Source of the DNA: an uncultured Pseudorhodobacter sp. | Lineage (GTDB): Bacteria > Pseudomonadota > Alphaproteobacteria > Rhodobacterales > Rhodobacteraceae | Direction of reading: 5' to 3' | DNA: 64,000 nt | Assembly: GCA_913062925.1 (NCBI GenBank) | Contig: CAJXWJ010000005.1 | Location: 1-64,000, forward strand | Shown here: one piece after another, positions 4,246-8,621 of the stretch | Layout of the letters: every line of letters starts with the position of its first letter | Numbering within the stretch: the first letter of the stretch is position 1 | Program-made: the position numbers and the translations under genes | The notes under the pieces: model-generated | Database searches by the model: none | The model's input: only the letters and a program-made list of their open reading frames with translations | Told to the model about the DNA's origin: nothing

Positions 4246-6138
4246 TTAGCCCTTGGCATAGCCCAGCGTTTGCAGCGCTTGGGTGATTTCATCCAAAATC
4301 GCCGGATCGTCGATGGTTGCGGGCATCTTCCAAGGCTTGCAGTCAGCGATATTCACCATGGTGCCGCGCAAAATCTTGCCCGAGCGGGTTTTTGGCAGAC
4401 GGTCCACCACAATCGCGCGTTTGAAATCGGCAACGGGGCCGATTTTCTCGCGCATCAAGGCGACACATTCTTTCACCACATCGGCAGCCGCGCGATCAGA
4501 GCCGGTGTTCAGGCACAAAAACCCAATCGGCGTTTGGCCTTTCAGCGCATCGGCCACGCCAATCACCGCACATTCAGCCACATCGCGGTGGTTGGCCAAA
4601 ACCTCTTCCATCGCGCCGGTTGACAGCCGGTGCCCTGCCACATTGATCACATCATCAGTGCGCGCCATGATGTAAAGATAGCCGTCCGCATCGACGTAGC
4701 CCGCATCGCCGGTTTCATAAAACCCAGGGAAATGCGCAAGATACGACTTCTTGAACCGCTCTTCCGCGTTCCAAAGCGTGGGCAGGGTGCCCGGAGGCAG
4801 TGGCAGTTTGATCGCAATCGCGCCCAAAGTGCCGGGCGCCACTGGATGGCCGCCCTCATCCAGAATCTGCACATCAAAGCCCGGCATCGCCACCGAAGGC
4901 GAGCCGATTTTGACCGGCAGATGTTCAATCCCCATCGGGTTTGCGGCAATCGCATAGCCGGTTTCGGTCTGCCACCAATGGTCGATCACCGGCACTTTCA
5001 CATGGGTCTGCGCCCAAGTGATGGTGTCAGGATCCGCGCGCTCGCCCGCCAGATACAGGGTTTTCAGGTTTGACAGATCGTAATGCGAGGGCAGCTCGCC
5101 ATTTGGATCATCGCGCTTGATGGCGCGCAGGGCCGTGGGGGCGGTAAAGAACGCCCGCACTTTGTGTTCAGCAATCACCCGCCAGAACGTGCCCGCATCG
5201 GGGGTGCCCACGGGCTTGCCTTCAAACACGATGGTGGTGCAGCCCGCGATCAGCGGCGCATAGCAGATATAGCTGTGCCCCACGACCCAGCCCACATCCG
5301 AGGCCGCCCAAAACACATCGCCCGCGCCACAATCATAAATCGCGCGCATGGTCCAGTTCAGCGCCACCAGATGGCCCGCGGTTGGCCGCACCACACCCTT
5401 CGGCGCGCCGGTGGTGCCCGAGGTGTAAAGGATATAGGCCGGATGATCGCCCGAAACGGGCACACATTCGGCCGGGGTCACGCCATATTGAAAGCTGTGC
5501 CAAGCCACATCACGGCCTTCAATCAGCTTGGCAACCTCTTGTTCACGCTGCAAAATCACGCAGAAATCTGGCTTGTGGCTGGCCATGTCGATCGCCATAT
5601 CCAGCAGCGGTTTGTAATGCACAACGCGGCTGGGCTCGATGCCGCAGCTGGCGGCGATAATGGCCTTTGGGGTGCAATCGTCGATCCGCACCGCCAGTTC
5701 AGCAGCCGCAAAGCCGCCAAAAACCACCGAGTGAATCGCGCCAAGCCGGGCGCAGGCCAGCATCGCCTCCAGCGCTTCGGGCACCATCGGCATATAGATG
5801 ATCACGCGGTCGCCCTTTTGCACACCCTTGGCGCGCAGCGCGCCTGCCAGCGAGGCGACGCGGGTTTGCAGCTCGGCATAGGTGATGCCATGTTTCGATT
5901 GCGTCACCGGGCTGTCGTGGATGATCGCAAGCTGGTCGCCGCGTCCGGCCAGAACATGGCGATCCACCGCGTTATAGCAGGCATTGACCGTGGCATCGGT
6001 GAACCATTCGTAAAGCGGCGCGCGGCTGTCGTTCAGCGCACGACTTGGCGCTTTCACCCAGTCGATCTGGCCTGCGGCCTCCATCCAGAACGCCTCTGGG
6101 TCGGCTTTCCAGCCCGCATAAACCTCACCATAGCCCAT
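4246..6138 (-). CDS. prpE: Propionyl-CoA synthetase (propionate--CoA ligase)
   Basis: Activates propionate to propionyl-CoA through an acyl-adenylate in the cytosol. It belongs to the ANL family: the phosphate-binding motif YTSGTTGAPKG is at residues 238-248, and the C-terminal catalytic lysine lies in PKTRSGKILRG. Its length of 630 residues and its start MGYGEVYAGW fit PrpE better than acetyl-CoA synthetase. The ATG at 6138 follows GGAGGAGG; the frame is open for a further 66 codons, but that stretch is the TTTGCAAA-rich regulatory region, not protein. Another methylmalonyl-pathway gene, the epimerase, is at 30050, which supports propionate use. Acetate is a possible side substrate. Confidence 0.9.
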   Translation of the reverse strand: MGYGEVYAGWKADPEAFWMEAAGQIDWVKAPSRALNDSRAPLYEWFTDATVNACYNAVDRHVLAGRGDQLAIIHDSPVTQSKHGITYAELQTRVASLAGALRAKGVQKGDRVIIYMPMVPEALEAMLACARLGAIHSVVFGGFAAAELAVRIDDCTPKAIIAASCGIEPSRVVHYKPLLDMAIDMASHKPDFCVILQREQEVAKLIEGRDVAWHSFQYGVTPAECVPVSGDHPAYILYTSGTTGAPKGVVRPTAGHLVALNWTMRAIYDCGAGDVFWAASDVGWVVGHSYICYAPLIAGCTTIVFEGKPVGTPDAGTFWRVIAEHKVRAFFTAPTALRAIKRDDPNGELPSHYDLSNLKTLYLAGERADPDTITWAQTHVKVPVIDHWWQTETGYAIAANPMGIEHLPVKIGSPSVAMPGFDVQILDEGGHPVAPGTLGAIAIKLPLPPGTLPTLWNAEERFKKSYLAHFPGFYETGDAGYVDADGYLYIMARTDDVINVAGHRLSTGAMEEVLANHRDVAECAVIGVADALKGQTPIGFLCLNTGSDRAAADVVKECVALMREKIGPVADFKRAIVVDRLPKTRSGKILRGTMVNIADCKPWKMPATIDDPAILDEITQALQTLGYAKG

Positions 6139-6195
6139 AGATGCCTCCTCCAAAGCTGCCAAAGTGTTACGCGCCTGACCCCGAGTCGCGCAAGG

Positions 6196-6331
6196 TTTGC
6201 GAAGCCGTGGCTGCGAAAACTTTGCATATATTGCCAAAGCTTCGGCGCAAACATTTGCAAAACTCGGATATATATGCGGATTTGGGCGAAATGTGGCAGG
6301 GTTTGCAAAGTTTCCTGAAAAACTCTGCAAA
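6196..6331. promoter_or_regulatory. Cluster of TTTGCAAA-like boxes upstream of prpE (ScfR/PccR-type operators)
   Basis: Two perfect TTTGCAAA palindromes lie at 6254-6261 and 6302-6309. Near copies are TTTGCGAA (6196-6203), TTTGCATA (6221-6228), TTGCCAAA (6231-6238) and TCTGCAAA (6324-6331). GCAAACATTTGC at 6247-6258 adds further symmetry. Short-chain fatty acyl-CoA regulators (RamB, and PccR of Rhodobacter sphaeroides) bind pairs of TTTGCAAA and sense acyl-CoA esters. The position between maeB and prpE, just upstream of prpE, suggests propionyl-CoA-dependent control. The regulator gene is not in the window. Confidence 0.7.
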
Positions 6332-6341
6332 CCCAAGTTGT

Positions 6342-8621
6342 TTAGCCGTAATGCCCGACAGGCGTGCCAGCCAAGGCCGCGATGTTCAAAAGCCCGCGCG
6401 CCGTGATCGACGGCGTGACGATATGGGCCAAGTTGCCCATGCCCATCAAGATCGGCCCCACCTCAAGCCCGCCTGCCTTGAATTTCAGCATATTGCGCGC
6501 GGTGCTGGCGGCATCGGTATAGCCAAAGACCAGAATATTGGCAGGCCCGTGCAGGCGTGCATTGGGGAAGATGCGGGTGCGCAGCTCGGGGTCAAGGGCT
6601 GCATCGGCGCTCATCTCGCCCTCATATTCGAAATCGACCTCGCGGGCGTCCAGAATTTCCATAGCCGCGCGCACACGGCGGCCGGAATCGCTGTCCAGAT
6701 TGCCAAAGTTCGAATGGCTGCACAGCGCCACCTTGGGCACCACGCCAAACCGGCGGGCATGGCGCGCTGCGCCAATCGCGCTTTGCGCGATCTGCTCGGG
6801 GCTTGGCACCGGGTTGATCTGGGTGTCGGCGATGAACAAAGGGCCGTCTTCCAAGATCATCAGCGACAAAGCGCCCTGTGGGCTGCGGCCTTCGCGGGCC
6901 AAAATCTGGCGCACATAGCCCAGATGCCACAGATATTGCCCGAAGGTGCCGCAGATCATGCTATCGGCATCGCCGCGGTGCACGCCAACGGCGGCGATTG
7001 CGGTGGAATTGGTGCGCATCACCGCGCGGGCAATATCGGGTGTGACGCCTTGGCGCGCCATCAGCTCGTGATAAGATCCCCAATAGTCCCGATAGCGGTG
7101 GTCGCTTTCGGGATTGATGATCTCAAAGTCTTTGTCCGGCCGGATCGGCAGGCCCGCACGTTCGCAGCGGTTTGCAATCACCTCGGGGCGGCCGATCAGG
7201 ATCGGCTTGTCGGTGGTTTCCTCCAGCATCGCGTTGGCCGCGCGCAGCACACGTTCGTCCTCGCCTTCGGCAAAGATGATGCGGCGGGTGACTTGGGCGG
7301 CGGCTTCAAACACCGGACGCATGATCAGCGCCGATTTGAACACCGAGCCGTCAAGTTTCTCGCGGTAGGCCTCGATATCGGCGATGGGGCGGGTGGCGAC
7401 GCCGGTTTCCATCGCGGCCTTGGCCACAGCGCTTGCGACCACGCCGATCAGACGCGGGTCAAAGGGTTTCGGGATCAGATAATCTGCCCCGAACGACAAC
7501 TTTTCGCCCGAATAGGCGGCGGCGGCCTCGGCGCTGGTGGTGGCGCGGGCAAGGGCTGCAATGCCTTCGATGCAGGCCAGCTCCATCTCGGCGTTGATCG
7601 TGGTCGCCCCAACATCCAGCGCGCCGCGGAAGATAAAGGGGAAACAGAGCACGTTGTTGACTTGATTGGGAAAATCCGAACGTCCCGTCGCCATGATCGC
7701 ATCAGGCACCACCGCGCGCACGGCATCAGGCAGGATTTCCGGCGTCGGGTTTGCCAGCGCAAAAACAATCGGCTGGCGAGTCATCGATTGCACCATTTCA
7801 GGCGTCAAAACGCCGGGGCCCGACAGGCCAAGGAACAAATCCGCGCCTACAATCACCTCGGCCAGCGTTTTTGGCGTGCTGCCTTGCGCGAATGCCGCCT
7901 TCTGCTCGGTCATCTGATCGGTGCGGCCTGCGTAGACAAGGCCCGCAAGATCGCAAAGCCAGACGTTTTCGCGTTTGACGCCCAGCTTCAGCAGCATGTT
8001 CAGGCAAGCGATTCCAGCCGCACCACCGCCCGTCGAGACGACCTTAATGTCGGCGAATTTCTTACCCGCGACATGCAGCGCATTGGTGGCCGCAGCCCCC
8101 ACGACGATAGCAGTGCCATGCTGATCGTCGTGAAAGACCGGAATCTTCATCCGCTCGCGGCAGATTTGTTCAACGATGAAACAATCGGGCGATTTGATGT
8201 CTTCAAGGTTGATCGCGCCAAAGGTCGGTTCAAGCGCGCAGACGATATCGGCAAGCTTATAGGGGTCGGATTCGTTCACCTCGATGTCAAAGCAATCAAT
8301 ATTGGCGAATTTCTTGAACAGAACCGCCTTGCCTTCCATCACCGGCTTTGACGCCAAAGCGCCAATGTTTCCAAGGCCTAAGACAGCCGTGCCGTTCGAG
8401 ACCACCGCCACAAGATTGCCGCGCGAGGTGTAGCGGCTGGCCGTGGCAGGATCGGCTTTGATCTCAAGGCAGGCTTCTGCCACGCCGGGGGAATAGGCGC
8501 GCGACAGATCGCGGCCATTGGCCAAAGGCTTGGTCGCACGGATCTCTAACTTTCCCGGCTTGGGAAATTCGTGATAATCCAGCGCCGCTTGCCGTGCGTT
8601 ATCCTGCCGCGTCTCTTCCAT
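6342..8621 (-). CDS. maeB: NADP-dependent malic enzyme with phosphotransacetylase-like C-terminal domain
   Basis: Decarboxylates malate to pyruvate, making NADPH. The first ~430 residues are the malic enzyme: [15 protein letters not shown], the catalytic-site segment [14 protein letters not shown], and a Rossmann [12 protein letters not shown]. The rest resembles phosphate acetyltransferase ([35 protein letters not shown]), which in MaeB proteins acts in regulation by acetyl-CoA rather than as a working transferase. The length of 759 residues matches the MaeB type. The ATG at 8621 has GGGAGAG just upstream. With prpE it would link methylmalonyl-CoA-derived C4 acids to pyruvate and NADPH. A single TTTGCAAA-like octamer (CTTGCAAA, 8710-8717) lies upstream. 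Confidence 0.95.

Follow-up and report, generated by a model that had tools for sequence, protein, structure and literature searches.

Candidate multi-site PccR operator upstream of the propionate–CoA ligase-type gene prpE in Rhodobacteraceae

The maeB–prpE gap

The window analyzed here, a stretch of 64,000 nucleotides from an uncultured Pseudorhodobacter species, carries prpE on its minus strand (positions 4246–6138), an open reading frame coding for a 630-residue acyl-CoA synthetase of the propionate–CoA ligase type. The top NCBIfam models for this protein are two propionate–CoA ligases, both of which score below their curated cut-offs (703.5 against 955 and 671.5 against 827.4). The upstream neighbor is maeB (6342–8621, also minus strand), which codes for a malic enzyme with a phosphotransacetylase-like C-terminus, and the two genes are separated by a gap of 203 bp (6139–6341). 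Because prpE lies on the minus strand behind a gene of the same strand, boxes located in this gap fall in the prpE promoter region.

Two perfect copies of TTTGCAAA (6254–6261 and 6302–6309) occur in the gap together with three copies that carry one mismatch, which read on the plus strand as TTTGCGAA at 6196, TTTGCATA at 6221, and TCTGCAAA at 6324. The first-pass annotation had described two perfect octamers and four near matches. The perfect pair stands, whereas only three near matches lie at one mismatch and the fourth requires at least two. Successive boxes start 25, 33, 48, and 22 bp apart, which agrees with the range of roughly 22–48 given earlier.

Read in the direction of prpE (all minus strand), the series begins with box A0 (6324–6331, TTTGCAGA), which lies 22 bp upstream of box A (6302–6309, perfect TTTGCAAA) and recurs at this distance in close relatives. 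Box A is located 48 bp upstream of box B (6254–6261, also perfect). A degenerate box, B' (6244–6251, TTTGCGCC), begins 10 bp after B and has the family consensus TTTGCA in a logo of 47 sequences. Box C (6221–6228, TATGCAAA; family consensus TCTGCAAA) is found at B+33, 35 bp before the -35 element. The last box (6196–6203, TTCGCAAA) adjoins the -35 element and is present only in the window among five aligned sequences; it is probably private to the window or a product of chance.

Promoter elements were sought by consensus among 47 relatives, and the hexamers named here are consensus matches within a putative promoter. In the window, a -35-like TTGCGC (6188–6193) is separated by 18 bp from a -10-like TAACAC (6164–6169), and both are on the minus strand, as is the ribosome binding site GGAGGAGG (6144–6151), which corresponds to a purine-rich stretch kept at -13 to -7 in the 47 aligned regions. 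In these regions, box C is likewise followed by a σ70-like promoter composed of TTGCCC or TTGCGC, 17–18 bases, and TAACAC. A reading of the TTGCGATAAT stretch that follows C as an extended -10 element was rejected, because the better promoter (TTGCCC, 17 or 18 bases, TAACAC) is located further down at a set distance. Separately, a TTGCGaTAATcTGaC stretch is conserved between box C and the promoter, 12–26 bases after C (for example, at loci L015 and L027), and is missing from the prpE regions of the window's clade.

The octamer is mildly enriched across the entire window, with five perfect copies against 2.65 expected. Since this enrichment is weak, the box signal is a local one, and local shuffles and relatives were used as the test. 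Dinucleotide shuffling of the gap (6139–6341; 5000 shuffles) gave a mean of 0.52 boxes with at most one mismatch. None of the shuffles held five such boxes, and only eight held two perfect ones.

Conservation of the box arrangement among genera

To place the cluster in its family, we searched for prpE across 120 genomes, each from a different genus of the Rhodobacteraceae, and examined 110 upstream regions. The module was called wherever boxes A and B occurred 47–50 bases apart with no more than one mismatch in total. By this measure, the A–B pair is present in 49 of the 110 regions, each representing one genus, with a spacing of 49 bases in 24, 48 in 20, 50 in three, and 47 in two. Shuffled versions of the upstream regions yielded a mean of 0.03 pairs per 110 and a maximum of one, and no close box pair was found in control stretches 400–1000 bp upstream of prpE in the 110 genomes.

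Alignment of 47 of these sequences revealed that the stretch separating A from B is barely conserved. The weaker box recurs at B+10, and 43 of the 47 sequences then have box C 31–35 bases after B. Among prpE genes from named records, 23 of 30 carry the module, that of Rhodobacter capsulatus included. Ruegeria relatives have it as well. The 120 genomes hold 67 places with an exact pair of boxes separated by 25–55 bases, compared with six for the backwards pattern. A hand tally assigns 46 of the 67 to prpE and five to the vicinity of pccR or pccB.

Roughly half of the sampled genera thus retain the boxes at matching positions and distances, as would be expected if the cluster were the control region of prpE that the first-pass annotation took it to be. 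Judged from this conservation, the cluster is considered a genuine operator made up of several boxes, which many genera of a single family keep at almost constant spacing. It most likely belongs to an ScfR, and it can be regarded as an unusual arrangement within a known type.

Several of the other exact pairs in the family lie in or beside seemingly unrelated genes. At one additional locus (L227:2459–2550), in a genome whose prpE is boxless (G095), three perfect copies of TTTGCAAA fall within 92 bases near a gene start.

A PccR-type regulator and its own boxes

A search of the genome for the PF09856 family returned two genes, on contigs C19 and C35. The first of these (C19, L003:9579–10976) codes for a full-length PccR-type ScfR of 465 residues, with the ScfR domain PF09856 at 230 bits, an M78-like domain (PF06114) at 64 bits, and HTH_3 at 42 bits. 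The gene adjoins pccB with one MFS gene between them, and pccA lies further on. The earlier proposal would have been undermined by a genome lacking an ScfR-type regulator, and this one encodes such a protein beside pccB. Its closest named relatives are the PccR proteins of Pseudorhodobacter sp. Ww154 (91%) and of Cypionkella species (88%), which places the source of the window in the Rhodobacteraceae close to these genera.

Residues 68–462 of this PccR align to the structures of MtPrpR from Mycobacterium tuberculosis (E 1.7e-81). The CX2CX4C iron–sulfur cysteines are kept, with CRICERRDC aligned to CKICNRTSC of MtPrpR. At the position of the MtPrpR ligand-selectivity residue F155 is Trp142, aligned to an F of PFEEVRDFF, which was taken to be F155 by way of the 155–440 construct. 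Tryptophan at this position is reported for the Rhodobacter sphaeroides PccR (PMC6765138).

The genome was also searched for other clusters of TTTGCAAA, as the earlier annotation had suggested. The genome has a single site with two perfect boxes separated by 0–30 bp, just upstream of the pccR start, and three sites where 31–60 bp separate a perfect pair, one of which is prpE. The two remaining wide pairs, one within a coding frame (contig C29) and the other beside a ppx-like gene identified by eye (C50), look unrelated.

Among relatives, 80 of 81 pccR loci have a perfect box no more than 150 bases from the gene, and in most of them boxes are placed about 40 and 20 bases ahead of the start. These boxes fall between -35-like and -10-like elements near the start of the gene, in a promoter judged by eye, and such an overlap with the apparent pccR promoter fits self-repression. 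At all 60 pccB loci whose start could be located, a box matching at least six of eight letters lies 70–100 bases before the gene. Copies of TTTGCA in a phased array at -40, -32, and -25 relative to the main box were also observed at pccB (L003:12325–12364 and the 60 loci), followed by a promoter with a TATGGT-like -10 element.

Distribution of the module and of PccR

Of the 91 genomes with PccR, 48 carry the module at prpE. None of the 12 without PccR carries it, and it is present in one of seven that have another ScfR only; the lists of PccR and ScfR genomes were set by hand. One module-bearing genome lacks a PccR match, and this genome (G028) is 86% complete. The 43 PccR genomes without the module at prpE count against PccR as the regulator. 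A tree of 100-residue PrpE ends provided just three independent pairs for the comparison. Because no statistical power is left once relatedness is counted, the Fisher p value of 8e-5 was not relied upon, and we regard the association between module and PccR as suggestive and not as phylogeny-proof.

Proposed regulation of prpE and the geometry of the boxes

We consider it likely, from the arrangement of these sequences, that the region is a multi-site PccR operator that activates prpE in response to a CoA-ester ligand. PccR, encoded beside pccB, would dock on dyads A, B/B', and C upstream of the σ70-type promoter, probably as a tetramer by analogy with the solved MtPrpR. A change in its CoA-ester ligand state would then help RNA polymerase to start and would raise prpE transcription, and propionate activation would thereby be tied to propionyl-CoA-using capacity through pccB. 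We infer PccR as the binder, activation over repression, and a bridging between boxes; the nature of the ligand, the oligomer, and the bridging of A, B, and C would follow from likeness to related regulators.

Part of the case for activation comes from the distance between box C and the promoter. This distance is 45–47 bp in 40 of 47 regions, 35–37 bp in five, and 50 and 55 bp in the other two. One of the five short cases (G078) was wrongly placed, as its TCTGCAAA occurs eight bases earlier, and it belongs with the larger group. The window, at 35 bp, shares the short form with its clade (35–36 bp), whereas most genera have 45–47 bp. In an alignment of five sequences, the window and close relatives, four show the short distance, and the remaining one carries an exact 11-bp insertion between C and the -35 element. 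An 11-bp insertion or deletion there amounts to one helical turn. Such quantized spacing argues for a face-of-helix contact with RNA polymerase. The conserved boxes at prpE all lie upstream of the -35 element, and this placement, combined with a distance that shifts by about one turn, is what an activator in contact with RNA polymerase would be expected to show. Counting against the model, the A–B spacing of 48–49 bp does not amount to an integral number of turns.

The same features bear on the alternative that PccR represses prpE until propionyl-CoA releases or rearranges it. The boxes in the pccR promoter, lying between -35-like and -10-like elements, have the layout of a repressor site, and a related regulator, the Paracoccus RamB, is described as both an activator and a repressor (PMC10370305), with a change between tetramer and dimer in the presence of CoA esters. 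At prpE, however, the position of the boxes upstream of -35 and their one-turn quantized distance fit activation, and we therefore view repression as improbable, though it is the strongest of the alternatives.

It is less probable still that the boxes are bound by the second ScfR and not by PccR. This protein (C35, 409 amino acids, beside a sensor-kinase gene) carries an ScfR C-terminal domain with the weaker score of 50 bits, and in this genome TTTGTAAA and TTTGCAAA lie just upstream of its start. However, the gene is near-universal (106 of 120 genomes) and is present in seven of the 12 genomes without PccR, all seven of which are module-less. In another genome (G053) the module is present and the second ScfR gene is absent. 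Since this regulator is so widespread, occurs without the module, and is missing from one module genome, PccR is the best candidate. In several relatives, moreover, the second-ScfR promoters carry copies of TTTGTAAA and not perfect TTTGCAAA. Copies of TTTGTAAA in promoters of this gene were seen at L004:8590–8617 and at L279, L289, and L292, some of them 32 bases apart, and they could possibly constitute a sister operator that differs from TTTGCAAA by one letter.

The boxes might instead be part of the maeB 3' end, with A0 and A forming a hairpin or terminator in its transcript. In the window these two boxes pair as a 16-bp stem on the minus strand (6299–6334) directly after the maeB stop, with a folding energy of -23.3 kcal/mol and a z-score of -5.9. 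No U-tract follows the stem in the window, however, and folding around box A is better than a z-score of -2 in just nine of 49 module regions, so the hairpin is not characteristic of the operator as a whole. The boxes and their spacing also persist where the stem is lacking and in the 13 of 49 regions where no maeB end was found in the 1000 bases ahead of prpE, which makes this explanation very unlikely.

Chance or an AT-rich promoter composition, to which the slight enrichment of TTTGCAAA across the window might point, can be dismissed given the absence of five boxes from every gap shuffle, the lack of close pairs in the upstream controls, and the excess of exact pairs over the backwards pattern with most of them at prpE.

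Relation to known operators

Carter and Alber are said to have described, in 2015, an R. sphaeroides pccB operator for PccR that consists of two perfect boxes 4 bp apart. The candidate prpE operator shares with it the octamer and a PccR-type regulator. It differs in serving another gene, in the 48-bp start-to-start distance of its perfect boxes, and in having a third box 33 bp on together with the weak box at +10. As the first-pass annotation noted, the layout at prpE is unlike this tight pair: 40 bp separate the perfect boxes, the closely spaced B' (+10) is degenerate, and two perfect octamers 4 bp apart do not occur at prpE.

The tight form is itself uncommon. Exact perfect pairs with zero to four bases between them are present in eight of 120 genomes, this genome not among them, and the four-base pair of the R. 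sphaeroides pccB form appears in a single genome of the family sample, near pccR (G051). The 48/49-bp pair, unlike the tight form, is common in the family. Cereibacter johrii, a relative of R. sphaeroides, has TTTGCAAA-GTCA-TTTGCAAA upstream of pccB, and a search for boxes upstream of its prpE found none.

More distant systems provide partial parallels. MtPrpR, according to PMC6765138 and PMC3420887, is an ScfR of propionyl-CoA use that recognizes TTTGCAAA dyads at prpDC and icl1, as the regulator proposed here would. Its operator differs in having two dyads one base apart and in serving the methylcitrate cycle, not propionate activation. The solved structures of MtPrpR lack the DNA-binding domain (PMC6765138). 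In Paracoccus denitrificans, the class 2 RamB operator has two boxes that are jointly needed for activation; it differs by an 18-bp spacer and by its glyoxylate cycle genes (PMC10370305). The same source states that deletion of pccR impairs the growth of R. capsulatus on propionate. Among the papers listed by literature searches, none describes this prpE operator in its title or the opening of its abstract.

If the proposed regulation is true, the PccR circuit would cover not only the use of propionyl-CoA (pccB) but also the entry of propionate (prpE), and one sensor would set both the supply and the use of a toxic intermediate. PrpE has been described as an acrylate-CoA ligase in DMSP-degrading roseobacters (PMC5651017). 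Given this role and the presence of the module in Ruegeria relatives, the switch may have a bearing on marine sulfur cycling. The natural 11-bp difference, combined with an otherwise conserved spacing, offers a ready-made test of how an ScfR contacts both DNA and polymerase.

A possible LacI-type site in genomes without the module

Many of the genomes that have PccR and lack boxes at prpE carry a different element there. A GTTAGCGCTAAC-like site is found at prpE in 22 of these 43 genomes and in none of the 43 control stretches, compared with 10 of the 49 module genomes. At the prpE of the window no such site was found, the best match being eight of 12 letters. The palindrome resembles an operator of the LacI-family regulators GapR/CceR. 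These regulators, which belong to a different family from PccR and use a different operator, seem to serve prpE in other genera. GapR is described as a regulator of central carbon metabolism in Rhodobacteraceae (PMC4052901).

A bolder, combined reading is possible, although we hold it only tentatively and think it rather doubtful as a whole. It joins a rigid multi-dyad ScfR complex at prpE to a handover, within the family, between PccR and a LacI-type (GapR/CceR-like) operator. At least one PccR tetramer would bridge A, B/B', and C at spacings of 48–49 and 33 bp, with the distance to the promoter shifting in steps of roughly full helical turns. The lineage of R. sphaeroides, in which the PccR model originated, would then stand on the LacI-type side of the handover.

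The GTTAGCGCTAAC-like palindrome was observed at the boxless prpE loci L253, L010, L087, L092, L096, and L099, and in several boxless loci it is located about 38 bases before the -35 element.
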